From a virus: a DNA stretch of 33,790 nucleotides. Below, piece after piece: positions 1,860 through 33,248 of this stretch. Below the pieces are notes generated by a model that searched no databases, was not told where the DNA came from, and saw nothing but the letters and a program-made list of their open reading frames with translations. The position numbers were made by a program, and so were the translations under genes. The stretch spans positions 1-33,790 of the IMG/VR virus record IMGVR_UViG_3300025133_000373; one strand, given 5' to 3'. Every line of letters begins with the position of its first letter. Positions within the stretch are counted from its first letter, which is position 1.

Positions 1860-2761
1860 TATTTTATCTCCGTTATATAGTATTTAACAATAGGTTTTCC
1901 ACGATAGGTTTCCAGATCTACATCCTTTAACTCAGGTATCTTGGCATAAGATATGCGACCCTTGCCTTCTGATCGTTTGAACCTTACTCCGCCACCAGTA
2001 CAAGAGTTACCATCTGATAACTCTATTAACTCTTTACGGATTTCCTTTTCTCTCGCATTGAGAGTATCAAGTTGAGAGTGAATACTACGCCATTCCTCGG
2101 CTAGAGTAATCCACTCATCATCTTTTCTCTTGGTAAAGTCTTTTTCACCTGTTGGTGGTGCGCCATCATACGAATAGTATTTCTTCCACGCATTAAAGAT
2201 TTCTTTTTGTTTGTCTAAATTAGGTTCAATCTTCTGCATTACTGCTGAATGATTATGTATGTCATATACCCAGAATATTAATTGTTTAGCGCCAGTTACT
2301 AAAAGCTGTTGCTGTGTTTGTAAGTCATACTGATCGGGTAATTCTTTACCAGAGGTCATGATTTCCCATAATTTAGAGTCTTCTCCTTTCATAGGTATCT
2401 TGATTTCAGCTACTATTTTCTTTTCACCATTCCAGCCATCTAATGATGCACCTATAGGAACTCCATCAATATGGCATAAAACAACGACTGGATTAAACTT
2501 GATACCCATGTTCTCTTCAAGAGATTCTCTTGCTACAGGCTCATATTTTGTACCTTGTTTCATAGCATCAGAAACAAACACTTTTCTTACTCCAGTCTTG
2601 ACTTCATACAACTGTAATGGGGTGGCAGGCATCCAAGGAGATTTGCTCATAACTGCAGCAGCTTCAGATGCCATACCGTAACGAGATCGTACCTTTAACC
2701 ACTCATCACTTCCTTGGGGAAGGTCAGTGTCCTTGATAAATTGTAAGTCAGTTATTTTCAC
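1859..2761 (-). CDS. YqaJ-type phage recombination exonuclease
   Basis: 300 aa with the lambda-exonuclease/YqaJ nuclease layout. QGSDEWLKVR (16-25) is the opening motif, GTKYEP (70-75) carries the helical Glu, GASLDG contains Asp108, and AEIKIP contains Glu119-x-Lys121. A Gln-rich helix (DLQTQQQLL, 146-154) completes the fold. This is the PD-(D/E)xK family that resects 5' ends to expose 3' single strands for the annealing protein. Its start overlaps the annealing-protein stop by 4 bases, so the two are translationally coupled. Residues about 215-250 are helical. All key residues are present, so it is probably active. Confidence 0.85.
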   Translation of the reverse strand: MKITDLQFIKDTDLPQGSDEWLKVRSRYGMASEAAAVMSKSPWMPATPLQLYEVKTGVRKVFVSDAMKQGTKYEPVARESLEENMGIKFNPVVVLCHIDGVPIGASLDGWNGEKKIVAEIKIPMKGEDSKLWEIMTSGKELPDQYDLQTQQQLLVTGAKQLIFWVYDIHNHSAVMQKIEPNLDKQKEIFNAWKKYYSYDGAPPTGEKDFTKRKDDEWITLAEEWRSIHSQLDTLNAREKEIRKELIELSDGNSCTGGGVRFKRSEGKGRISYAKIPELKDVDLETYRGKPIVKYYITEIK

Positions 2762-3318
2762 TTCTTTACCTCAGTAACTTTAGCTTTTCCTTTAGGTTTA
2801 ACTGGTTCTTCATCCTCGAATGGCAAATCCTCCCCTCTGTATATATACAGACCTAATCCATGAAGGGCAAGGCATTTAGCCAAGCAACGCTTGATAGAGG
2901 TATTAATTTCAAATGAGTTAGGGTTTGGTATAGGTTTATTAACATGATTAAGGACTGGTAGTATTTCAGTACGCTCAAGACCTTTAATAGTAACAGTAAC
3001 TTTCACATAGCAACCCGACTGATCTCTTAGGAACGGCACTAATATATCTGTGTTTGCTTTAGTGCCTACTTTAAATGTATCAGACATCTTAATAGCAGTA
3101 CCATCACCGTCATTACTATATGTGTCATGCACTTCAAATACACCTTGCATCATAGGGAACTCGTGAACTACCCAAGTAGTATCTGGATAAATTCTAAGTA
3201 CACCTGTTAGTGCATCAGTCCAAGACAAATAAGAGAGTTTTCCCTTTTGTCTTTTATATTCGTTAGCATTTATATTTTCTAAGACGCTGAATACGTCTTT
3301 TTTCTTGGCTGTAGCCAT
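2758..3318 (-). CDS. Single-strand annealing protein, DUF1071 (Sak3-type)
   Basis: A 186-aa protein with the DUF1071 signature: FSVLENINANEY, the KLSYLSWTDAL segment (27-37), a beta-rich middle, and the C-terminal EINTSIKRCLAKCLALHGLGLYIYRGEDLP. The tail after residue 165 is acidic then Lys-rich. These proteins coat single strands and anneal homologous DNA, paired with an exonuclease. It is first in the minus-strand operon, with an AGGAGAAAATC ribosome site and a sigma70-like promoter 35-65 bases upstream. Expected partners are the exonuclease and SSB-like protein just downstream. Confidence 0.8.
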   Translation of the reverse strand: MATAKKKDVFSVLENINANEYKRQKGKLSYLSWTDALTGVLRIYPDTTWVVHEFPMMQGVFEVHDTYSNDGDGTAIKMSDTFKVGTKANTDILVPFLRDQSGCYVKVTVTIKGLERTEILPVLNHVNKPIPNPNSFEINTSIKRCLAKCLALHGLGLYIYRGEDLPFEDEEPVKPKGKAKVTEVKK

Positions 3319-3352
3319 GATTTTCTCCTATTATTATGTAAAAAGAACTTAG

Positions 3353-3382
3353 ATTATAGCAGTAACTATTTACTTAGGTAAA
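3353..3382 (-). promoter_or_regulatory. Sigma70-like promoter of the recombination operon
   Basis: On the minus strand a perfect TATAAT (3358 to 3353) is preceded, at an 18-base spacing, by TTTACC (3382 to 3377; 4 of 6 match to TTGACA). Transcription would begin near 3346 and run into the annealing-protein gene. The -35 box lies inside a palindrome, consistent with repression. Confidence 0.6.
3369..3382. promoter_or_regulatory. Operator-like palindrome, copy 1
   Basis: TTTACTTAGGTAAA has TTTAC/GTAAA arms around a 4-base centre. The same 14 bases, oriented with transcription (TTTACCTAAGTAAA), recur at 12277-12290 beside the terminase promoter. Here it covers the -35 region. Likely a binding site for a dimeric regulator; the protein is not known. 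Confidence 0.5.
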
Positions 3383-3402
3383 CTATTTTAATAATTTAGA
3401 CG

Positions 3403-3435
3403 AAAAAAAACCCCCAAGTGATAATCTCGGAGGTT
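3403..3435 (-). terminator. Intrinsic terminator upstream of the recombination operon
   Basis: Minus strand: AACCTCC (3435-3429) pairs with GGGGGTT (3415-3409) across a 13-base loop, and eight T residues follow (3410-3403). It lies before the operon promoter at 3353-3382, so it would end RNAs started further right rather than terminate the operon. A 7-base segment of it (CACTTGG) is complementary to CCAAGTG about 50 bases upstream in the same RNA, which could form a competing antiterminator. Confidence 0.6.
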
Positions 3436-3455
3436 TTAAAAGACTTCTAAAACTG

Positions 3456-3477
3456 TTCGGCAGCACTTGGATAGTCT
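3456..3477 (+). repeat. TTCGG/GCACTTGGAT/GTCT box, copy A
   Basis: TTCGG, two bases, GCACTTGGAT, one base, GTCT. A second copy starts exactly 140 bases further on (3596). This copy forms the right arm and loop of the 3439-3479 inverted repeat. Confidence 0.5.
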
Positions 3478-3595
3478 TTAGTTATAATGCCATGGAGCGA
3501 CATAAAACTTATGGTTATTATACATCATTTTAATTAATTGCAAGTTTTTTTGAAAATTATTTTATTTGCACAATATTTTAAGGTATATTTAAATC

Positions 3596-3618
3596 TTCGG
3601 TTGCACTTGGATCGGTCT
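3596..3618 (+). repeat. TTCGG/GCACTTGGAT/GTCT box, copy B
   Basis: TTCGG, two bases, GCACTTGGAT, two bases, GTCT; same orientation as copy A. It lies just after an AT-rich stretch that includes TATATT (about 3585), a possible -10 for the helicase operon, so it may be at or near the start of the leader RNA. Confidence 0.45.
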
Positions 3619-3619
3619 A

Positions 3620-3949
3620 AACATCACCTATCAAGTAAAAAAAGAGGAAACCCCTTAGCCAACCGTTAAAGTGTAAGTAGAGTTTAAATTACTAGACGAT
3701 ATATTGGGTAATAACCCTTGTCCAAAGATGATTTGAGCAGATAACAGCACAAGGGGGTGGCGCATAGAGTCATAATGTTATCAGTAGGGGGTTCTATCAC
3801 TGACCCTACCCCAGGATATGAAGGCTAACTTTGTCGGATAAATTCTTGTGGCGATCTAGGGTTTGGTTCATACCTGCCCTAGGGTAATATCGCCCAGAGA
3901 AACTTCAGGTCTTCATTATCGGATAAACTTTAACGTAACAAGGGGAAAC
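3620..3949 (+). promoter_or_regulatory. Structured 5' leader/intergenic element before the helicase
   Basis: A non-coding stretch of about 330 bases with several exact inverted repeats: GGGT/ACCC (3706-3709, 3714-3717); CCCTTGT/ACAAGGG (3715-3721, 3749-3755); GATAACA/TGTTATC (3740-3746, 3776-3782); GTAGGG/CCCTAC (3784-3789, 3804-3809); and a long stem GGCGATCTAGGG (3850-3861) pairing with CCCTAG (3877-3882) and ATCGCC (3889-3894) around a 6-base bulge. The second and third helices interleave, as in an H-type pseudoknot. TCGGATAAA occurs twice (about 3834 and 3919). No convincing ORF is present. It could be a regulatory mRNA leader, a non-coding RNA, or replication-origin hairpins. Confidence 0.5.
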
Positions 3950-5440
3950 ATGGAGCTTAGAAACTATCAAGAACAAGCAATAACTGATTTATCACACTCA
4001 CTTGGTAAAGGTAATAGGAGAGTCATACTGCAAGCCGCAACTGGTAGTGGTAAAACTGTTATGGCATCAAGCATCGTGAAACGAGCTGTAGATAAAGGCA
4101 GTACAGTTTTGTTTCTAGCACACAGAAGAGAGTTAATCTCGCAGTGTTCTAACAAACTTAATATCTTTGGAATAGGTCATGGCATTATTATGGCTGGTGA
4201 AGTAACAGAGGCTTGGCATCAGGTTCAAGTAGCATCAGTAGATACTCTAAGAGCAAGAGCAATAAGTTCTAAACGTATGAGATTACCTAAAGCAGATATT
4301 ATTATTATTGATGAGTGTCATAGGACTTTATCAAATACATATAGAAAAATTATTAATGAGTATGATGGTAATGTTGTATTAGGATTAACTGCAACACCTT
4401 GTAGGGGAGATGGATTAGGGTTGGGACATGTTTATTCTGACATGGTATGTGCGCCCACAATCAAACATTTAACAAACGAAGGTCATCTTGTACCAGCTAA
4501 ATATTTTGCACCATCTATTCCAGATCTAGCAGGAGTAAAAATTACAGCAGGTGATTACAATAATAAACATCTTGCAAAGAGAATGGATACTCCTAAACTA
4601 GTAGGTGATGTGGTTACTAACTGGACAAGTATCGCACAAGGGAAGACTACCGTTGTATTTGCATCATCAGTACAGCACTCTATTAATTTGATGGAGTCAT
4701 TTCAAAAAGCAGGCATAAAAGCAGCACATATTGATGGCTCTACTGAAACAGAAGTGAGAGATTTAACATTAAAACAGCTTGAAGATGGTGAAATTACTGT
4801 ACTATGTAATTGCCTTGTTCTTACTGAAGGATGGGATTGTCCTTCAGCAGAGGTTTGCATACTCGCCAGACCTACAAAATCACTGGGTTTGTATTTACAA
4901 ATGGTAGGTCGCGTACTCAGACCTATGGATGGTAAGGATGAGGCAACTATAATTGACCACTCGGGTGCAGTCTATGAGCATGGTTTTGTAGATGATGAGT
5001 TTGAGTGGGATTTAGACCCTAAGAAGAAAATCCAAGAAAAGAAAAAGCGTGAAACAAAGCGTGAAACACATCCTATAACATGTGAGAAGTGTTTTACCGT
5101 CTACTCAGGTGTGAGAGTATGTCCATCTTGTGGATCAGTTCATATTAAAAAAGGTAGAGCGTTGTTTGTGGGCGATGGTGAGTTAGGTGAGATTGATCGT
5201 AACTCTAGGAAGATTAAGAAAAAAGAATATTCATCAGACCAAAAGAAAGAATGGTATGCAATGCTAAAAGGTTATGCTGCAACCAAGGGGTATAAAGATG
5301 GCTGGGCATATTACAAGTATCATGATAAATTTGGTTCAGCACCACCTTGGAAGAAAACCAGTACAGTTAAACCAAACCCAGAAGTGATGTCTTGGATAAC
5401 ATACATTAATATTCGTAATTCTAAAAAGAGGTCAGCATGA
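3950..5440 (+). CDS. Superfamily 2 DEAD/H-type DNA helicase with C-terminal zinc finger
   Basis: 496 aa from the ATG at 3950, chosen because AAGGGG lies 5 bases upstream and the protein then begins MELRNYQEQAI, the usual Q-motif start. Walker A is ATGSGKT (30-36), the Walker B box is DECH (121-124), motif III is LTATP (146-150), and motif VI is QMVGRVLRP (317-325). A four-Cys finger follows (C378, C381, C391, C394). This is the ComF/RadD-like phage SF2 class that unwinds or remodels DNA. It heads the plus-strand replication operon and overlaps the primase by 4 bases (ATGA). No DnaB-type helicase is seen, so it may be the phage's main helicase. Confidence 0.85.
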   Translation: MELRNYQEQAITDLSHSLGKGNRRVILQAATGSGKTVMASSIVKRAVDKGSTVLFLAHRRELISQCSNKLNIFGIGHGIIMAGEVTEAWHQVQVASVDTLRARAISSKRMRLPKADIIIIDECHRTLSNTYRKIINEYDGNVVLGLTATPCRGDGLGLGHVYSDMVCAPTIKHLTNEGHLVPAKYFAPSIPDLAGVKITAGDYNNKHLAKRMDTPKLVGDVVTNWTSIAQGKTTVVFASSVQHSINLMESFQKAGIKAAHIDGSTETEVRDLTLKQLEDGEITVLCNCLVLTEGWDCPSAEVCILARPTKSLGLYLQMVGRVLRPMDGKDEATIIDHSGAVYEHGFVDDEFEWDLDPKKKIQEKKKRETKRETHPITCEKCFTVYSGVRVCPSCGSVHIKKGRALFVGDGELGEIDRNSRKIKKKEYSSDQKKEWYAMLKGYAATKGYKDGWAYYKYHDKFGSAPPWKKTSTVKPNPEVMSWITYINIRNSKKRSA

Positions 5441-8181: not shown

Positions 8182-8254
8182 CTTCATTCTCCACAATCAT
8201 ATAAAGCAACCAGGCTTGGTATAGTATTGATAATCCTAATAATATCTCAAACAT
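8174..8254 (-). CDS. 26-aa single-TM peptide
   Basis: Encodes MFEILLGLSILYQAWLLYMI then VENEDG: one membrane helix and a short acidic tail. AGAGGAGG lies 6 bases upstream, one of the strongest ribosome sites in the region. The start overlaps the preceding stop (ATGA) and the end overlaps the winged-helix gene start by 8 bases. Probably translated despite its size; function unknown. Confidence 0.55.
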   Translation of the reverse strand: MFEILLGLSILYQAWLLYMIVENEDG

Positions 8255-8487
8255 CACACGCCTCCTCTTGGCACTATTTCCATTTCTGTGTCGCTTGTCC
8301 AAAAAGCACCACTACTATTCCCCTCATCATCAGCACTTGCCATAATCCAAGTACCATCAGTAAAGAAAATAATAGGCGCTGAGTGCGACCAATCTAGTTC
8401 TTCCATTTCATCTACATCTGTGTATCTGATATGGCTAACTACTTTGCCTTTAAATATCTTAGTGGTATCACCGCTCCAATCTCTCAT
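8254..8487 (-). CDS. 77-aa phage protein of unknown function
   Basis: Beta-rich with the segment APIIFFTDGTWIMASADDEGNSSGAFWTS (about 38-66). Strand-turn-strand pieces of the type L.FTDGT...ASDDEGN.PG are common in small phage proteins. GAGGAGGAAGT precedes the ATG, and the gene overlaps both neighbours by ATGA or TGATG. It ends RGGV, encoded by the next gene's ribosome site. Acidic overall; no catalytic motif. Confidence 0.6.
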   Translation of the reverse strand: MRDWSGDTTKIFKGKVVSHIRYTDVDEMEELDWSHSAPIIFFTDGTWIMASADDEGNSSGAFWTSDTEMEIVPRGGV

Positions 8488-8672
8488 ACTTCCTCCTCGT
8501 GCATACGTTCGTTACTATCCCAATCACCATCAACTTGTATTTCAACCCACTTAATTAGCTGACGTAATCTAAGAATTAAATCACTAGCTTCTTTAGGGTA
8601 AGGTACTTCAGTTGTATCTATGAAAGTCATAGCATCACATACAGTATCCATTGCTTCATCATTAGTTATCAT
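8484..8672 (-). CDS. 62-aa acidic helical protein
   Basis: Two predicted helices (EAMDTVCDAMTFI and KEASDLILRLRQLIKWVEIQ) and an acidic tail ending MHEEEV, where the EEEV codons double as the ribosome site GAGGAGGAAGT of the next gene. AGGAGGAAGT precedes its own start. No family recognised. Confidence 0.55.
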   Translation of the reverse strand: MITNDEAMDTVCDAMTFIDTTEVPYPKEASDLILRLRQLIKWVEIQVDGDWDSNERMHEEEV

Positions 8673-8683
8673 ACTTCCTCCTA

Positions 8684-8860
8684 TTAATATTCAAATGTAT
8701 CTAATGGTTTGTTGTTACTCCCTTGGTCTAGATTTTCGTAGAAGTCTTTTATTGACTCCCATACAGTAACCAAACCCTCTCCGATGATCAACACCTTGTT
8801 GTTATCGTTTACTTGCACAAGGTAATTACCTCCGCCAGTATTTATTTTTTCTGTGGTCAT
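8684..8860 (-). CDS. 58-aa protein of unknown function
   Basis: Begins MTTEKINTGGGNYLVQVNDN and ends NKPLDTFEY. Beta-hairpin-like first half (YLVQVNDNNKVLIIG) followed by a helix (VWESIKDFYENL). The first 12 coding bases and the ribosome site are part of a 24-bp exact repeat shared with the preceding gene's start. The start overlaps that gene's stop by ATGA. Function unknown. Confidence 0.55.
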   Translation of the reverse strand: MTTEKINTGGGNYLVQVNDNNKVLIIGEGLVTVWESIKDFYENLDQGSNNKPLDTFEY

Positions 8861-8870
8861 ACGTCCTCCT
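8847..8870. repeat. 24-bp direct repeat of a gene start, copy 1
   Basis: Identical to 9071-9094. It spans the ribosome site (GGAGGACGT), the ATG and the first codons (MTTE) of a small minus-strand gene, so two successive genes share one start cassette. Confidence 0.7.
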
Positions 8871-9084
8871 CTAAATCTTCCACAGTAGAACCAGCATTCA
8901 TAATACCGTTTTCAATTGCCTCATCTAGGGCATCATCAATATTATATTTCACCATATCCTTAAAATAATCATATTGCTTGTCATAGTACAGTGCCAGTAT
9001 GTTATACATATCAGCACTATCAGTATAATATTGTGCTAGTTTATCGGTTAGACTCTCTCTAGTCATTTTATTTTCTGTGGTCAT
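8857..9084 (-). CDS. 75-aa strongly acidic protein
   Basis: Starts MTTENKMTRESLTDKLAQYY and ends STVEDLEEDV. By hand count 18 Asp/Glu against 6 Lys/Arg, with many Tyr in the middle (YNILALYYDKQYDYF). Likely helical. The EEDV end is coded by the next gene's ribosome site. Such acidity is seen in DNA-mimic and anti-defence phage proteins, but no specific family is recognised. Confidence 0.55.
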   Translation of the reverse strand: MTTENKMTRESLTDKLAQYYTDSADMYNILALYYDKQYDYFKDMVKYNIDDALDEAIENGIMNAGSTVEDLEEDV

Positions 9085-9094
9085 ACGTCCTCCT
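9071..9094. repeat. 24-bp direct repeat of a gene start, copy 2
   Basis: Exact partner of 8847-8870; contains the ribosome site and first codons of the gene starting at 9084. Confidence 0.7.
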
Positions 9095-9287
9095 TTGGAT
9101 ATTGAAACTCATTTACACGCTCCATATATAAATCTGAGCGGTATCCAATTTCAGCAGTTGATATTTGTATTTCCATATCTAATACCCTTATAAATATAGA
9201 ACCGTCCATCTCATATGCATCTATACCTCCATCTTTAAAATAGGCTAATACATTTGTTCGTTCTAATAAATCATCATTTAGCATCAT
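9081..9287 (-). CDS. 68-aa acidic protein
   Basis: MMLNDDLLERTNVLAYFKDG..., with alternating strands around SIFIRVLDMEIQISTAEI (about 30-47) suggesting a small alpha/beta fold. Ends YPKEDV, the last codons being the next gene's ribosome site. GAGGAGGAAGT lies before the start. No family recognised. Confidence 0.55.
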   Translation of the reverse strand: MMLNDDLLERTNVLAYFKDGGIDAYEMDGSIFIRVLDMEIQISTAEIGYRSDLYMERVNEFQYPKEDV

Positions 9288-9487
9288 ACTTCCTCCTCTA
9301 ATGGTAAGCCTTTAGCTGTTACTTGTTCGCAGTCATAAACCGTACAACCACCCCAAGACATACCAGTGCTCCAAGTATCTTCATAAGCTTCTTGTTTTGC
9401 TAGTTCCCTAGCTTCCTCCTCAGTGTCAGCTTCAATCCTAGTTCTGTAGACCGTTTCTACATCTAATGCTATATTCCAGTGTTTCAT
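9284..9487 (-). CDS. 67-aa small alpha/beta phage protein
   Basis: A strand WNIALDVETVYRTRIEA is followed by the helix DTEEEARELAKQEAYED, the pattern (beta strand, then EAdteEEAxexA) of many small phage and plasmid proteins including DpnD/PcfM-like ones. A Trp/Gly/Cys-rich patch follows (TGMSWGGCTVYDCEQV). Ends LEEEV through the shared ribosome-site cassette. AAGGAGA lies 7 bases before the ATG. Role unknown. Confidence 0.55.
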   Translation of the reverse strand: MKHWNIALDVETVYRTRIEADTEEEARELAKQEAYEDTWSTGMSWGGCTVYDCEQVTAKGLPLEEEV

Positions 9488-9723
9488 TTTTCATTCTCCT
9501 TTATGTATTTATTCATAGCTTCAAAGGACTCCTCTTCAGATATTATTTCCTTATCAACCCAGGCAATTGTTTCACGAATTTCGTTATCTACACTCTCGTA
9601 GTATTTATTATTAATTAATTCAATAATGTTTAACCATCGTTCCTGCATATCTAGACTGTCCTCCCTTTCAGTAACTGCTAAGTAGTCTTCATAATCCCAT
9701 TCAAAATTTAATGTTGTTTTCAT
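9484..9723 (-). CDS. 79-aa acidic helical protein
   Basis: Begins MKTTLNFEWDYEDYLAVTER and ends NKYIKENEK. Roughly 22 acidic against 9 basic residues by hand count, and mostly helical. It overlaps the following gene by ATGA and starts 1 base after the preceding stop. No motif recognised. Confidence 0.55.
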   Translation of the reverse strand: MKTTLNFEWDYEDYLAVTEREDSLDMQERWLNIIELINNKYYESVDNEIRETIAWVDKEIISEEESFEAMNKYIKENEK

Positions 9724-9724
9724 T

Positions 9725-9889
9725 TTATTTCTTCCTTTGTTCTAGTTCGTCTTCCGACATAAAGTTTACTTGTATTGTATCCCCATCATCAGTTGTGAAT
9801 GACCAGTCAAACGATAGGTTCATATACACTACGTCCTTAAACTCCTCTAAGTCATACTCAGTGATAGGTATGTTGATTTCCTTAATCAT
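9725..9889 (-). CDS. 54-aa acidic protein
   Basis: MIKEINIPITEYDLEEFKDV is followed by a beta-rich middle (VYMNLSFDWSFTTDDGDTIQ) and a charged end EDELEQRKK. About 14 acidic and 5 basic residues. GAGGAG lies 9 bases before the ATG, and the start overlaps the preceding stop by ATGA. Function unknown; it joins the neighbouring genes without a gap. Confidence 0.55.
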   Translation of the reverse strand: MIKEINIPITEYDLEEFKDVVYMNLSFDWSFTTDDGDTIQVNFMSEDELEQRKK

Positions 9890-10227
9890 AAGAATTTACT
9901 CCTCATGTGTTCATCTACTGCAATACCGAAAGCACGACTACTGGTTAAGTTGTCTAATTTGTCCTCAACATCGTCTAGTACCTCGTCTTTTAAGTAGCTA
10001 ACTTGCTCGTCAACTTCGTTTTCTATTCTTGTTCTAATATCTTTAAAGCCTGCCAAGTCCAGTAATAACTGCTTAACGTCTATATTGTTATTAAGCAATG
10101 TTATTAATTCTGCTCTAATAGGATTACTTTTGTAATTATCCAGTTGGTGCGTTAATACATCAATAGTATGTTCCAGTTTTTCAATACGCTTCATTGCGTC
10201 CTCGTCTTGTTCGTTAAATTGCTCCAT
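9886..10227 (-). CDS. 113-aa acidic coiled-coil protein
   Basis: Nearly all helix: MKRIEKLEHTIDVLTHQLDN is a classic coiled coil, and a second helical block contains NEVDEQVSYLKDEVLDDVED. Strongly acidic. AAAGGAG lies 8 bases before the ATG. It may form oligomers or act as a scaffold or inhibitor; no family recognised. Confidence 0.55.
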   Translation of the reverse strand: MEQFNEQDEDAMKRIEKLEHTIDVLTHQLDNYKSNPIRAELITLLNNNIDVKQLLLDLAGFKDIRTRIENEVDEQVSYLKDEVLDDVEDKLDNLTSSRAFGIAVDEHMRSKFL

Positions 10228-10246
10228 AGCATTTACTCCTTTATTG

Positions 10247-10495
10247 TTATAAAAAAAACTCTACTGCGTCTTTGCTTGACCCAGTACAGATACCACCATC
10301 AATCTCCACAAAGGCAAATATTTCACCTACCTTTGTAGTTATTAATTCCTCACGATATACCCCAATTTCCCACGACTCGTCATCACGCTGGAATATGCGA
10401 TATAAAATATCATCAATTTCAAATGCCACTATCTCGACTTCATCAAGTATAAGCGCATAAGTTTTAATTAAGTTTTCGGCTACCTTTGCAGTCAT
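10247..10495 (-). CDS. 82-aa acidic beta-rich protein
   Basis: Begins MTAKVAENLIKTYALILDEV, then alternating strands (EIVAFEIDDILYRIFQRDD, SWEIGVYREELITTKVGEIF, AFVEIDGGIC). Its first codons lie in an 18-bp sequence repeated at the end of the HTH gene 3 kb away. TAGGA precedes the ATG by 9-10 bases. A terminator-like hairpin lies just upstream, so it may be expressed less than the genes before it. Function unknown. Confidence 0.55.
   Translation of the reverse strand: MTAKVAENLIKTYALILDEVEIVAFEIDDILYRIFQRDDESWEIGVYREELITTKVGEIFAFVEIDGGICTGSSKDAVEFFL
10475..10492. repeat. 18-bp direct repeat, copy 2
   Basis: Identical to 7440-7457; here it encodes residues 2-7 (TAKVAE) of the 82-aa protein. 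Confidence 0.6.
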
Positions 10496-10530
10496 TATAT
10501 TTTTGTCCTATTTATTAAAAAAAATTCACG

Positions 10531-10556
10531 ATTAAAAGCCTAGCATTTGCCAGGCT
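10531..10556 (-). terminator. Intrinsic terminator inside the minus-strand cluster
   Basis: Minus strand: AGCCTGGC-AAAT-GCTAGGCT (one G-T pair) followed by TTTTAAT. It lies 17 bases after the stop of the 81-aa gene and would split the cluster into a strongly and a more weakly transcribed part. The T-run is short, so termination may be partial. Confidence 0.6.
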
Positions 10557-10572
10557 CTCAATGATTAATTTT

Positions 10573-10818
10573 CTATTGGTCAATAGACGCAATAACGTCT
10601 ATAAATTCGTTGGTGTACTTTGACTCGACATCTGTAGAAACGTACTTTGTGCGCCAGTCTTTTCCCCAGATATGTTTAAAATATTCTGGAGCATCACAAT
10701 CCTCCTCCAAGTAGTAAAAACGTTTATTTTGCCTAGAATAGTTTGACGGCTTAAAACCTTGCATGTCTGAGCGTTTAACGCGCAAATACCCGTGCGTTGG
10801 TGTGCTAATCCACTCCAT
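10573..10818 (-). CDS. 81-aa phage protein of the THGYL...YYLEEDCDA type
   Basis: Starts MEWISTPTHGYLRVKRSDM and contains RFYYLEEDCDAPEYFKHIWG (about 33-52). This Trp-x-Ser-Thr-Pro-x-His-Gly-Tyr-Leu opening with a YLEEDCDA block recurs in small phage and conjugative-element proteins of unknown function. The start overlaps the previous stop (TAATG). A hairpin terminator follows. The recurring motif makes it a real gene; its job is unknown. Confidence 0.65.
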   Translation of the reverse strand: MEWISTPTHGYLRVKRSDMQGFKPSNYSRQNKRFYYLEEDCDAPEYFKHIWGKDWRTKYVSTDVESKYTNEFIDVIASIDQ

Positions 10819-11414
10819 TATGCTACCTCCTCAAACTCTTTAACCAGTTCAGCCAGTACGTCAGATCTATCATAACCTACAACATCTAAGTCAATGTAAC
10901 CCGTGTTGGTTTTTGCGCTACATCTTATATATTCATCATTAATACGACTGGTGCAAGAAAACTCCATGCTCTCGACTATTATATAAAAGTCATGAAATTG
11001 CTCGTTAAATATCTCGTGTAGTTCATGCTCGTCATTAAGTAAGCAATAAGCCGTGTCAGTGTAATTCCCTCTCACATCTCCGAACCTATGAAATTTAACA
11101 GCTAAAACAATGCCCTCGCCTTGCGCTGGTGTATATATTCTATAATCAAAATCGTTCGAAATCATACCCCCCCAGTTATAAGAATTGTCAGCGTGTTTAT
11201 AGTCTAGATTTTCAATATCGTCAACACTTTCAACTTCTAATAAAGCGCATACCCTATTATTAGTAATTTCACAATCTCCCAGCGCGTCCACTAGTTCAAG
11301 TATATCGACTGTAATATCGTCCTCGCTTCGTGCTGGTAAAACTTGCGATTGCCCGAAAATATCAACCGTTGCGCCTCTCAGTTCTATTAAATCTCTTTTA
11401 ATATCTTTTATCAT
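10818..11414 (-). CDS. 198-aa protein of unknown function
   Basis: The largest protein of the minus cluster, starting at 11414 because GGAG lies 7 bases before that ATG (an in-frame ATG at 11456 has no site). Helical N-terminus MIKDIKRDLIELRGATVDIF, then a beta-rich acidic body with YNWGGMISNDFDYRIYT and GIVLAVKFHRFGDVRGNYTD. It ends SDVLAELVKEFEEVA. Several Cys but no metal motif. No family recognised; position next to the cluster promoter suggests early expression. Confidence 0.6.
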   Translation of the reverse strand: MIKDIKRDLIELRGATVDIFGQSQVLPARSEDDITVDILELVDALGDCEITNNRVCALLEVESVDDIENLDYKHADNSYNWGGMISNDFDYRIYTPAQGEGIVLAVKFHRFGDVRGNYTDTAYCLLNDEHELHEIFNEQFHDFYIIVESMEFSCTSRINDEYIRCSAKTNTGYIDLDVVGYDRSDVLAELVKEFEEVA

Positions 11415-11521
11415 AGTATTACTCCAGTATTGATTAATGCCAGCATAGTAATACAAAATACCATGCCAGCAATTATTAAAACATCTCTTGTTTTGTTTTC
11501 GTCCTCGACCCAGTTACTCAT
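11411..11521 (-). CDS. 36-aa single-TM peptide
   Basis: MSNWVEDENKTRDV (polar, acidic) is followed by the membrane helix LIIAGMVFCITMLALINTGV and IL. Start and stop each overlap a neighbour by ATGA. Its last codons contain the ribosome site of the 198-aa gene, so translation of the two is coupled. Likely an inner-membrane peptide with its N-terminus in the cytoplasm or periplasm; unknown role. Confidence 0.55.
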   Translation of the reverse strand: MSNWVEDENKTRDVLIIAGMVFCITMLALINTGVIL

Positions 11522-11790
11522 AACAAACCTCCAACCCAGCCTCGAACGTCCACGCGTCCAGCTTTTACATCGTCATCAGTTGGTGCTGGTATGTGCGATT
11601 GCTCCCAAGCCCTGCAAAGTCCTATCTCAATAGGTAACATATCCCAACCCACAACGTAGTAATTTTCGTTATAGTTTTCTACATACCCAGTTGTATTAAC
11701 TTCGTATTCCGTTCCGATTGTCTTACTATGCCAATCAGCGAACGCGTACGCTTCGCTCTTGGTCATCTCTTGCGTTTCGTATGTTTCCAT
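11518..11790 (-). CDS. 90-aa protein, first gene of the minus-strand cluster
   Basis: METYETQEMTKSEAYAFADW, then YVENYNENYYVVGWDMLPIE, and a C-terminus VKAGRVDVRGWVGGLL. GGAG lies 8 bases before the ATG and a sigma70-like promoter about 35-65 bases upstream, so it should be among the first phage products. Tyr/Trp-rich, acidic; no motif recognised. Confidence 0.6.
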   Translation of the reverse strand: METYETQEMTKSEAYAFADWHSKTIGTEYEVNTTGYVENYNENYYVVGWDMLPIEIGLCRAWEQSHIPAPTDDDVKAGRVDVRGWVGGLL

Positions 11791-14435: not shown

Positions 14436-14462
14436 GAGAAAACCATGGGCGGAGTAGTAAGA
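14419..14462 (+). repeat. 44-bp direct repeat, copy 1 (partner 14762-14805)
   Basis: Identical to 14762-14805, 343 bases apart. It includes the terL end, the ribosome site AGGAG and the first codons MGGVVR of the following gene, showing that a terL-tail-plus-gene unit was tandemly duplicated. Confidence 0.8.
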
Positions 14463-14765
14463 TTAGTCAAAAGCATGAGGCGTGGTAGTACACCTTTACC
14501 CGTTATGGATTTTAAAGATAGTGCTGGAGTATCAGCGCCACAAGATCTACAAGACGCTGGAAGAAGAGGTATGTCTGCAATTGTGACTGGAAAGCCAATT
14601 GAAAACGAAGTAGAAGCTCCACCAGAGACTGAAGAGACTTTACTTAAAAAGAAAGAGACTTTACTTAAAAAGAAGAAGAAAGGTCGTTACTCAACACTAC
14701 TGACAGGCGGAAAAGGCGTTACAGGTGGTGTAGATATTGAAAAGAAATCATTATTAGGTAGTTAA
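14445..14765 (+). CDS. KKKGRYSTLLTGG-motif virion-block protein, paralog 1
   Basis: 106 aa. N-terminus MGGVVRLVKSMRRG; an internal tandem repeat ETLLKKK ETLLKKK (64-77); then KKKGRYSTLLTGGKG (77-91) and KKSLLGS at the end. Small proteins ending in a GRxSTLLTGG...LLG block sit between terL and the portal gene in many short-tailed phages; role unproven, possibly in head or portal assembly. It is basic at the C-terminus. Its paralog follows immediately after a duplicated stretch of terL tail. Confidence 0.65.
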   Translation: MGGVVRLVKSMRRGSTPLPVMDFKDSAGVSAPQDLQDAGRRGMSAIVTGKPIENEVEAPPETEETLLKKKETLLKKKKKGRYSTLLTGGKGVTGGVDIEKKSLLGS

Positions 14766-14805
14766 TATATTTACATAGGAGAAAACCATGGGCGGAGTAG
14801 TAAGA
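14762..14805 (+). repeat. 44-bp direct repeat, copy 2
   Basis: Exact partner of 14419-14462; contains a non-coding copy of the last terL codons between paralogs 1 and 2. Confidence 0.8.
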
Positions 14806-15090
14806 GTTTTCAAAAATCTCGTTGCACCATCGAAAGACCCAGCAGCGCCATTAGTAAGAGCGTTTGCTGCAAAAAAATCTGGAACAAACATTTTAGAAAA
14901 ACCAGAAAGCGTTGTTAAAGATGTAATTCCAGATAATGAAGTAGAAATGCCAGAAGCTACAGAGACTTTATTGAAAAAAGAGACTTTATTGAAAAAAAAG
15001 AAAAAAGGTCGTTACGGCACACTACTAACAGGTGGAAAAGGCGTTTTAGGAAGTCCAGATATTAAAAAGAAATCACTATTAGGTAGTTAA
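14788..15090 (+). CDS. KKKGRYSTLLTGG-motif virion-block protein, paralog 2
   Basis: 100 aa. MGGVVRVFKN at the start and ETLLKK ETLLKKKKKGRYGTLL (59-80), TGGKG and KKKSLLGS at the end, as in paralog 1. The middle (11-50) has diverged strongly while both ends are conserved, suggesting the ends bind a common partner. AGGAG lies upstream of the ATG within the duplicated sequence. Function unknown; same context as paralog 1. Confidence 0.65.
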   Translation: MGGVVRVFKNLVAPSKDPAAPLVRAFAAKKSGTNILEKPESVVKDVIPDNEVEMPEATETLLKKETLLKKKKKGRYGTLLTGGKGVLGSPDIKKKSLLGS

Positions 15091-15304: not shown

Positions 15305-15723
15305 TCGAAATCAAACCTAATGCGGGGCAAGAAGTCACGGATTGGGTAGCAGAACGAGTAGATGCTACTACTTTTGGTGATAGTGTCAATTTTGGTTTTT
15401 TTGAAGATGACAAATTAGTAGGTGGAGTAGTTTTTAGTGAGTACCGTGTAGAGGATATTACATTCTCTGGTGCTTTTGAAGACAAAAGATGTTTCACGAA
15501 ACGCAATTTGCGCTACTTCTTTGAATATCCTTTCAGACAACTCAAGTGTCACAGAATTACAGCATATACCGAAACGGACAACAAAAGGGCTAATAAGTTA
15601 CTTAAAAACCTTGGTTTTACCCTTGAAGGGACTATGCGAGAAATATCAGAAAAGGGAAAGGATGCCAACATATATGGTATGCTTGACCGCGAATGTAAAT
15701 GGTTAGGAGATAACAATGGGTAA
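15301..15723 (+). CDS. GNAT-family acetyltransferase-like protein
   Basis: 140 aa with GNAT order: strand pair FGFFEDDKLVGGVVFSEYR, helix FTKRNLRYFFEYPFRQL, strand HRITAYTETDNKRANKLLKN then LGFTLEGTMRE (about 99-123), the classic N..A...L..LGF..EG.MRE signature of RimJ/RimL-type N-acetyltransferases. The acetyl-CoA loop (R/Q-x-x-G-x-G/A) is not obvious. It sits inside the virion block of several podoviruses. Substrate unknown; it could modify a virion or host protein. It overlaps genes on both sides. Confidence 0.7.
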   Translation: MIEIKPNAGQEVTDWVAERVDATTFGDSVNFGFFEDDKLVGGVVFSEYRVEDITFSGAFEDKRCFTKRNLRYFFEYPFRQLKCHRITAYTETDNKRANKLLKNLGFTLEGTMREISEKGKDANIYGMLDRECKWLGDNNG

Positions 15724-15949
15724 GAAATCAGCACCGTATGTACCACCACCACCTGTAGATTACGCTGCAGAATCTCGTGCAAGAGAGGAAGAGCAAGAAG
15801 CTATGGATAAGGAACTTGAAGATACAAGAACAGAATTATTAGAGCGCAAGAAAAAAGGCAGATACTCTTTATTGCTAACTGGCGGTGAAGGAGATCAAGA
15901 TGAAGCGACAATTAAAACTCGTTCTTTACTTGGCTCAGGTAAAAAGTAG
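15716..15949 (+). CDS. KKKGRYSLLLTGG-motif virion-block protein, paralog 3
   Basis: 77 aa. MGKKSAPYVPPPPVDYAAES, a charged helix (RAREEEQEAMDKELEDTRTE), then LLERKKKGRYSLLLTGGEG (41-59) and TRSLLGSGKK. It combines the N-terminus of the 15092 protein with the C-terminus of paralogs 1 and 2. AGGAG lies 6 bases before the ATG. It immediately precedes the portal gene. Role unknown. Confidence 0.65.
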   Translation: MGKKSAPYVPPPPVDYAAESRAREEEQEAMDKELEDTRTELLERKKKGRYSLLLTGGEGDQDEATIKTRSLLGSGKK

Positions 15950-31592: not shown

Positions 31593-33248
31593 ATGGCAGT
31601 ATCAAGCACAACAAGTAAAGTAAGTTATACAGCATCAGCATCACAGACCGTATTTGCGTACACATTTAAGATATTCGCAGATGCAGATTTAAAGGTTTAT
31701 GTTAATGATGTACTTAAAACACTAACAACAGACTACACAGTATCTGATGCAGGGGAAACTGCAGGCGGTAATGTTACCTTTGGAACAGGATTATCAGCTT
31801 CCGATTCAGTAGTAATTGAAAGAGTCTTAACCCTTACCCAAGGAACGGACTATGTAGAGAACGATCCTTTCCCAGCAGAAACTCACGAAGATGCACTAGA
31901 TAGATTAACTTTTATCACACAACAACATCAAGATGCTTTAGATAGAACAGTTAAATTTGCTACTACGGTAACAGATGTAGGTGATGTAGAGGTATTAGGT
32001 TCAGCTACAGCTAGAGCAAGTAAATTATTTGCATTTGATTCTTCTGGTGGCTTAGACATTACTCAAGAAATCGGAGTTTACAAAGGTGGATGGGCTGCAA
32101 CTACTGCTTATGTTGTTCGAGATATTGTTAAAGATACTGGTAATAATAATATTTATATTTGTAATACCGTTCATACTGCTAGTGGTGCTTTACCAATTTC
32201 TAGTAATGCTGATTCAGCCAAATGGGATCTAATTGTAGACGCAGCAGCAGCAGCAACCTCTGCTACCGCAGCAGCGACTTCAGCTACGGCAGCTGCAAGT
32301 TCTGCCACAGCAGCAGCTAGTTCAGCTTCAGCAGCAGCTACTTCTAAAACTGGAGCAGATGCTGCTCAGACAGCAGCTGAGACTGCTCAGACAGCAGCTG
32401 AAACAGCAGAAACTAATGCAGAAACTGCTGAAACTAACGCTGAAACAGCAGAGACTAACGCAGAGACAGCAGAGACTAACGCAGCGTCTAGTGCAACAGC
32501 AGCAGCTTCTAGTGCTACCTCTGCTTCAACAAGTGCATCAACTGCTACGACAAAAGCAACAGCAGCAGCTTCTAGTGCGACAGCGGCTGCAAGTTCCGCA
32601 ACGGCAGCTGCGACATCAGCCACTAACGCTGCGACATCAGCCACGACTGCATCCACTCAAGCAACAAATGCTGCTACTTCAGCAACAACTGCTACGACTC
32701 AAGCTTCTACTGCTACTACTCAAGCAACAGCAGCAGCAGCGAGTGCAACAGCAGCAGCAGCTTCAGCAGATGCGTTTGATGATGTCTATCTAGGAGCTAA
32801 GGCTTCTGATCCAACATTAGATAATGATGGTGATGCTCTGACAGCAGGAGATATGTACTTTAATACAGGTACAGATAGAATGAGAGTTTATTCTGGAAGT
32901 GCTTGGGCAGATGTTGCTTTAGATAGTGCAACAATAGTTACCAAAACTTCAGCTACTGGTTCTGGAGTTCTTCCAGCAGGTACAACAGCACAACGAGATG
33001 GTTCGCCTTCAGCTGGTTATCTAAGATGGAATACAACAGACACTAGTGCTGAGGTATATGACGGTTCAGCTTGGGCTGCAGTAGGTGGAGGTAATACTAC
33101 TGATGAAGGCTTATATGAACATTCACATACTATCAGTGCTAACTACAGCATAACTAGCGGTAACAATGCTTTAACTGCTGGACCAATTACAATTAATACA
33201 GGAGTCTCAGTCACAGTACCTACTGGTTCGACTTGGGTGATAGCATAA
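31593..33248 (+). CDS. Tail fibre protein, T7 gp17-type N-terminus
   Basis: 551 aa. Residues 1-135 match the T7 fibre attachment domain: FAYTFKIFADADLKVYVNDV and YVENDPFPAETHEDALDRLT. Residues about 160-212 (YKGGWAATTAYVVRDIV..IYICNTVHTA...W) resemble a carbohydrate-binding module 5/12-like fold. Residues about 213-392 are a low-complexity Ala/Ser/Thr/Glu shaft with repeats AETAETN and ATSATAAASS. The C-terminus (DDVYLGAKASDPTLDNDGDA onward; ends GVSVTVPTGSTWVIA) is the receptor-facing tip. It attaches to the nozzle through the N-terminus and sets host range. Confidence 0.85.
   Translation: MAVSSTTSKVSYTASASQTVFAYTFKIFADADLKVYVNDVLKTLTTDYTVSDAGETAGGNVTFGTGLSASDSVVIERVLTLTQGTDYVENDPFPAETHEDALDRLTFITQQHQDALDRTVKFATTVTDVGDVEVLGSATARASKLFAFDSSGGLDITQEIGVYKGGWAATTAYVVRDIVKDTGNNNIYICNTVHTASGALPISSNADSAKWDLIVDAAAAATSATAAATSATAAASSATAAASSASAAATSKTGADAAQTAAETAQTAAETAETNAETAETNAETAETNAETAETNAASSATAAASSATSASTSASTATTKATAAASSATAAASSATAAATSATNAATSATTASTQATNAATSATTATTQASTATTQATAAAASATAAAASADAFDDVYLGAKASDPTLDNDGDALTAGDMYFNTGTDRMRVYSGSAWADVALDSATIVTKTSATGSGVLPAGTTAQRDGSPSAGYLRWNTTDTSAEVYDGSAWAAVGGGNTTDEGLYEHSHTISANYSITSGNNALTAGPITINTGVSVTVPTGSTWVIA
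32239..32772 (+). repeat. Low-complexity GCA/GCT-rich repeat tract in the fibre gene
   Basis: Short imperfect units coding for Ala-rich heptad-like sequence (AATSATAAASS, AETAETN). Because the units are biased, other frames stay open here without being genes. Such tracts can gain or lose units and change shaft length. Confidence 0.8.

Follow-up and report, generated by a model that had tools for sequence, protein, structure and literature searches.

In this work, we have used comparative sequence analysis to characterise the noncoding region that precedes the helicase gene of a 33.8-kb viral contig from IMG/VR (33,790 nt, analysed over its whole length and referred to here as the window). The comparison firmly supports a structured leader before this gene, with compensatory changes in most of its helices, and the leader is outside every curated RNA family of the Rfam release searched. 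Antisense pairing between the 5΄ end of the leader and a small RNA (sRNA) predicted on the other strand is well supported by the coevolution of the two sites, which suggests that sRNA and leader evolve together in related phages as an undescribed RNA control of phage replication genes. We propose a two-RNA module in which antisense RNA controls the replication operon, similar to the C4 system of phage P1 and to plasmid copy control and in no known family, a reading that we regard as moderately probable.

The terminase encoded in the window shares 67% identity with its counterpart in Pelagibacter phage EXVC032P Baldr, and the window also encodes a podovirus-type head-tail connector, a Sak-type annealing protein, a YqaJ nuclease, a ResIII/DEAD helicase and a Toprim primase. 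The annealase and helicase genes diverge and are separated by 631 noncoding bases, in which the features of Table 1 lie. In L005 (3253-3486) and at the same position in L008, two of the relatives introduced below, a P22-Cro-like gene (below the Pfam cut-off) is found between the annealase gene and the sRNA, with palindromic TATAACANNTGTTATA sites nearby. Elsewhere in the window, three small ORFs (14445-14765, 14788-15090 and 15716-15949), apparent tandem duplicates sited between the terminase and portal genes, have a common C-terminal motif like KKKGRYSTLLTGGKGV...KKSLLGS; small acidic ORFs follow one another on the minus strand at 8254-11790, with several stop-to-start overlaps and ends in EEV or EDV; and the tail-fibre-like ORF (31593-33248) carries a long Ala/Thr/Ser-rich repeat at 32200-32800.

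Table 1. Predicted features of the region between the annealase and helicase genes, with their flanking genes (window coordinates)
Feature	Position	Strand	Window and relatives
Sak-type single-strand annealing protein	2758..3318	-	Divergent neighbour; own promoter at 3382-3353 (-)
Predicted antisense sRNA, 108 nt, three hairpins	3403..3510	-	Fold z -3.22; same layout in L005 (93 nt) and L008 (102 nt)
Intrinsic terminator of sRNA	3403..3437	-	12-pair stem + T8 (terminator scan)
sRNA recognition hairpin	3439..3479	-	Stem AAAGACT 3439-3445/AGTCTTT 3473-3479 on +; analogous hairpins in L005, L008
Antisense segment, repeat copy 1	3456..3472	-	TTCGGCAGCACTTGGAT (+ letters); complementary to leader 5΄ end
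Predicted sRNA promoter TTGCAA-15-TATAAT	3517..3543	-	From sequence; L005 and L008 12/12 TTGACA-16-TATAAT, same place
Predicted -10 of rightward promoter	3582..3590 (TATATT 3584-3589)	+	GGTATATTT; identical 9-mer in all three lineages, immediately 5΄ of Pa
Structured leader RNA of helicase gene (predicted transcript 5΄ part)	~3595..3949 (start +/- 3 nt)	+	Conserved fold in window, L005, L008; noncoding; no Rfam match
Target segment at leader 5΄ end, repeat copy 2	3596..3612	+	TTCGGTTGCACTTGGAT
Helix Pa	CGGTTG 3598-3603/CAACCG 3660-3665	+	L005 GGCAATG/CATTGCC, L008 AGGCAG/CTGCTT; hand-aligned
Helix Pb	ACTTG 3605-3609/CAAGT 3632-3636	+	L005 CAAGG/CCTTG, L008 ATTGAG/CTCAAT; hand-aligned
Candidate pseudoknot	CCCCTT 3651-3656/AAGGGG 3751-3756	+	L005 TCTCT/AGAGG, L008 CCCCT/AGGGG; hand-aligned
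Hairpin Pc3, GGGT/ACCC	3706..3717 (3706-3709/3714-3717)	+	L008 GGAT/ATCC in register; absent in L005
Helix Pd	GATAACA 3740-3746/TGTTATC 3776-3782	+	Perfect 7-bp stem, different per lineage
Helix Pe	GTGGC 3757-3761/GTCAT 3769-3773	+	Conserved bulge GCRC..RGRGG with Pd and Pe
Helix Pf, GTAGGG/CCCTAC	3784..3809	+	L005 GTTAGA/TCTAAC, L008 GCCAGA/TCTGGT; hand-aligned
Hairpin Pg, AAGG-CTAA-CTTT	3821..3832	+	Conserved loop CTAA(C); L005 CGGA/TCCG, L008 TGGA/TCCG; hand-aligned
Direct repeats TTGTCGGATAAA, TTATCGGATAAA	3831-3842, 3916-3927	+	Both copies CCGTTGAATRA in L005 and L008
Bulged stem Ph (12 bp): GGCGAT + CTAGGG with CCCTAG + ATCGCC	3850..3894 (3850-3861 with 3877-3882 + 3889-3894)	+	Conserved bulge GGTAAT; outer part L005 AGGTA/TGCCT, L008 CGGGCG/CGTCTG; hand-aligned
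Helicase gene (ResIII/DEAD + Helicase_C)	3950..5440	+	Regulated gene in model; primase next at 5437

Relatives were found by helicase and annealase searches of IMG/VR, and their helicases are 88% (L002), 83% (L003), 75% (L008, plus near copies) and 72% (L005) identical to that of the window. The pre-helicase regions of L005 and L008 can be aligned to the window from the 9-mer GGTATATTT through the start codon, and these three independent sequences, with leaders of 335-369 nt that are widely divergent, form the comparative leader set. L002 and L003 are nearer in helicase, yet an unrelated structured noncoding segment occupies the leader slot in both (L002:2311-3195 and L003:2539-3534). Between these two segments, a stem has undergone a compensatory change, GCAATCTC/GAGATTGC in L002 and GCAAACTC/GAGTTTGC in L003, around the same loop AATGTGTTGTTAGTC. 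A DNA similarity search of the region against 50,697 phage records returned nothing meaningful. In scans of IMG/VR and genome contigs with the conserved core motif, only already known loci were true among the matches listed, the other listed matches being inside genes or without the flanking stem. In distant relatives a gene lies directly upstream of the helicase, and apparent long noncoding gaps at this place proved to be coding.

The predicted leader is about 355 nt long and runs from the conserved -10 into the helicase start codon. The promoter scan found no good -35 for it in the window, and the corresponding L008 promoter reads TTTACA-18-TATATT. The initial annotation had placed a highly structured leader at 3700-3895 and had described far more pairing there than in nearby DNA. 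Folded alone, this stretch is no better than its dinucleotide-shuffled controls (z -0.18, with 78 of 200 shuffles folding equally well). The longer segment 3640-3950 reaches a single-sequence z of -2.2 (complement, -1.2), and the leader at 3593-3949 a z of -2.29, modestly beyond shuffles. These values indicate that the boundaries first drawn were too narrow and that single-sequence folding is no proof of structure. Most of the element lies outside those boundaries, including the minus-strand sRNA and the leader's 5΄ third. It is the comparison of relatives that upholds the excess of pairing: the consensus fold of the three whole leaders scores -38.2, against -16.0 +/- 3.6 for column shuffles (z -6.2, 0 of 200), and the complementary strand of the same alignment reaches a z of only -3.2. 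This stronger fold on the plus strand, together with two G-U pairs of helix Pe that are kept in all three lineages, favours an RNA reading of the leader. The view that the leader matches no known RNA class also holds, since Rfam 15, its ribozyme and large phage RNA families included, gave no match at the gathering cut-off in the window and eight related loci, and only chance matches when both strands of 3320-4000 were searched at E values up to 10; readings of the leader as a group I intron, a tRNA-like element or a riboswitch found no match either. An undescribed structured RNA leader before the helicase gene, as first suggested, thus has strong comparative support.

The helices do not all carry the same weight. 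Pd and Pe were assessed on an alignment built without reference to structure, whereas Pa, Pb, Pf, Pg and Ph were aligned by eye and are for this reason weaker evidence. The Pd stem, which reads GATGTTG/CAACATC and GGTGTAA/TTACACC in the two relatives L005 and L008, flanks a core, GCRC..RGRGGYGGC...GTCRTAA, common to the three leaders. Together, Pd and Pe comprise 12 pairs that are formed in 36 of 36 cells of the three sequences, half of them (6/12) altered on both sides; when the partners are slid by 1 to 3 columns, both-side changes fall to 0 or 1. In the hand-aligned stem Ph, 4/5 and 6/7 pairs of the inner part are formed in the relatives. A long-range 12-bp pairing (3664-3675/3924-3935) that appears in the window fold was left uncounted, since L005 has a possible equivalent that is shifted and L008 only a weak one. 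The direct repeats TTGTCGGATAAA and TTATCGGATAAA keep a spacing of 85-87 bp and both copies are altered in step between lineages; no pairing partner for them was found, and they are possibly protein-binding sites.

All four inverted repeats first noticed at 3700-3895 are present there, and the relatives support both the 12-bp bulged stem and, through L008, the GGGT/ACCC hairpin. Two of the four, CCCTTGT (3715-3721)/ACAAGGG (3749-3755) and GATAACA/TGTTATC, do interleave with loops of 18, 2 and 20 nt and had been taken for an H-type pseudoknot. Its second helix (Pd) covaries in the three lineages, with 5 of 7 pairs changed on both sides, but the first helix is not conserved: it shows no compensatory change, L008 has one bulged position and one mismatch, and L005 lacks the 5΄ strand. 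The CAAGGGG strand more likely pairs with CCCCTT at 3651-3656, a pairing of 5-6 bp in each lineage with both sides altered in the hand alignment. Thus the leader likely contains a pseudoknot, other than the one originally drawn.

What could act on this leader? In each lineage, the leader 5΄ end is repeated some 131-140 bp upstream, as the strongest or near-strongest direct repeat of the intergenic region, and the upstream copy sits in a minus-strand transcription unit made of a promoter, three hairpins and an intrinsic terminator. Since the repeat falls in the middle hairpin, the predicted sRNA carries there the complement of the leader's opening ~17 nt. The sRNA promoter of the window is weaker than consensus, with a 15-nt spacer. 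The sRNA appears to stand alone, because a separate promoter for the annealase gene lies past the sRNA terminator: TTTACC-18-TATAAT in the window and L002, TTGACT-16-TATAAT in L005 and TTGCTA-17-TATACT in L008. Each sRNA of the window, L005 and L008 folds as three hairpins, and the MAFFT-aligned sRNAs gave no significant consensus fold (z -1.5).

A comparison of each sRNA with its whole leader places the best Watson-Crick match at nt 3-20 of the leader in each of the three lineages, and shuffled sRNAs equalled the real complementarity 4, 1 and 0 times in 300. The matching sequence is lineage-specific, with cognate pairs scoring 24-25 versus 13-18 for cross-species pairs, and no other target of the sRNA segment above chance was found in the window. 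In L002 and L003, a short terminated minus-strand unit has even stronger complementarity, to the beginning of the rightward transcript (0/300 each), with the caveat that both repeats there hold minus-strand terminator-like hairpins and share sequence for that reason alone. A second contact is only suggested: in four of five genomes, namely the window (GCUCCAUG with CAUGGAGC), L008 (AUCGCUCC with GGAGCGAU), L002 and L003, the sRNA 5΄ loop (UCGCUCC) shows complementarity over 7-8 nt to the translation start of the helicase, at a p of about 0.01-0.1 each. This match was noted post hoc, is common to the window, L002 and L003 by descent, and is absent in L005.

We propose that the rightward promoter with its -10 GGTATATTT would start the structured leader, which would run into the helicase-primase genes, while the leftward promoter would give a short terminated sRNA of about 108 nt (3510-3403) whose middle hairpin would expose the antisense sequence. 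By pairing with leader nt 1-20, the sRNA would open the 5΄ helices Pa and Pb, within which the CCCCTT strand of the likely pseudoknot lies, and the resulting change in leader fold would reduce replication gene expression or set its timing. The step affected could be translation, premature termination or decay; the second contact, between the 5΄ loop and the helicase start, would point to a translational repressor similar to C4 of phage P1. Modelling with the target blocked, the helicase ribosome-binding site was neither freed nor closed consistently between lineages, so a switch at this site was set aside and no particular step is predicted. Both transcripts, their pairing in the cell, and the direction and step of control are what we infer from these sequences, and the helicase-primase operon is presumed to be the controlled unit from its position.

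The same arrangement could be read at the level of DNA. The matching sites may be operators, where a phage repressor bound to direct repeats shuts both divergent promoters and the leader acts only in cis, for example as a 5΄ stabiliser or by binding a protein. Here, too, the two sites would be expected to match; the two copies have the same orientation and lie 131-140 bp apart in every lineage, one directly downstream of each promoter, and L005 and L008 encode the adjacent Cro-like protein. However, that gene has palindromic TATAACA..TGTTATA sites of its own, the window has no adjacent Cro-like gene, and the repeated sites are without dyad symmetry and wholly different between lineages; moreover, Pa/Pb of the leader are formed by one copy, and the second lies in a hairpin of a terminated transcript. 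We consider operators unlikely. More improbable is a plain cis-regulatory leader, or an origin with initiator-binding repeats (GTCGGATAA/GTTGAATRA), in which the antisense match is a by-product of duplicated DNA: the repeats spaced 85-87 bp do vary in step between lineages, but duplication hardly explains complementarity that is position-matched and lineage-specific in three lineages, unless it was renewed each time.

Another reading takes the leader as a replication pre-primer, similar to RNAII of ColE1, with the sRNA as an RNAI-like inhibitor and the region as the phage origin. The region has the look of such a system, in that a noncoding RNA that is long, structured and marked by G-rich stretches heads the helicase-primase genes and faces a ~100-nt antisense RNA of three hairpins; yet the Rfam RNAI family is not matched, the complementarity is limited to ~17 nt supplied by a separate site where RNAI overlaps its target in full, and the helicase start codon follows directly, as after an mRNA leader, so that we give this reading a low probability. 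Chance pairing in AT-rich DNA, with which the single-sequence energy of 3700-3895 at the shuffle mean would agree, is contradicted by the compensatory changes and by the consensus-fold z of -6.2, and is very improbable.

If the antisense module that we favour is real, a class of long structured RNA without a curated family, together with a dedicated antisense RNA, heads the replication genes of marine phages related to EXVC032P, and its partners, changing together between lineages, represent a natural series of orthogonal RNA pairs. It would also offer a testable model for how marine phages time replication or exclude relatives. As a tentative suggestion, with a rather small chance of being right, the pairs could form an RNA specificity system comparable to plasmid incompatibility groups: a phage that is resident, or that arrives first, would use its sRNA to silence replication genes in like phages but not in phages with another pair. 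In this reading the leader may even be swapped as a cassette, since L002 and L003 carry an unrelated structured leader at the same site and in the same arrangement.

Plasmids provide well-known cases of antisense control over replication genes, as do a few temperate enterobacterial phages. In the open-access literature we found no description of this arrangement in pelagiphage-like phages, a search limited to open-access text that is no proof of absence. Like the large phage noncoding RNAs GOLLD and ROOL, the leader is a long structured phage RNA without a known protein product, but it has no Rfam match to any of them. The CI RNA of phage P4, which is processed from the leader under its control, and the OOP RNA of phage λ are short phage RNAs too, and they pair with a leader or an mRNA to silence genes for replication or decision; their origin, layout and target differ from those described here. 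The plasmid copy-control RNAs (ColE1 RNAI/RNAII, pIP501 and pT181) are closer in that a hairpin RNA of ~100 nt with an intrinsic terminator acts on the 5΄ end of a long structured replication leader. Those RNAs are cis-antisense with a long overlap; here a short repeat located apart supplies the complementarity, and a phage carries the system. Whereas RNAI and RNAII overlap fully, the sRNA (3510-3403) shares no position with the start of the leader (3595), and in contrast to the attenuators of pIP501 and pT181, the terminator scan of the leader (3595-3949, plus strand) found no intrinsic terminator-like site.

The C4 RNA of phages P1 and P7 is processed from the same transcript as its target. 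The C4 covariance model of Rfam found no match at gathering in the window, nor up to E=10 in 3320-4000 on both strands. In P1, C4 binds around the ribosome-binding site via segments in loops, and in P1 and P7, where it acts on the ant mRNA, its hairpin loops are complementary to short segments of the target leader, one of them at the translation start, with phage-type-specific recognition (PMC12197685). The module proposed here may likewise rest on a small phage RNA with loops complementary to a target leader, the leader contact being strong and the start-codon contact a candidate one of 7-8 nt in four of the five genomes, absent in L005; it differs from C4 in that its sRNA would come from a divergent promoter and its target would be the long structured leader of a replication helicase.
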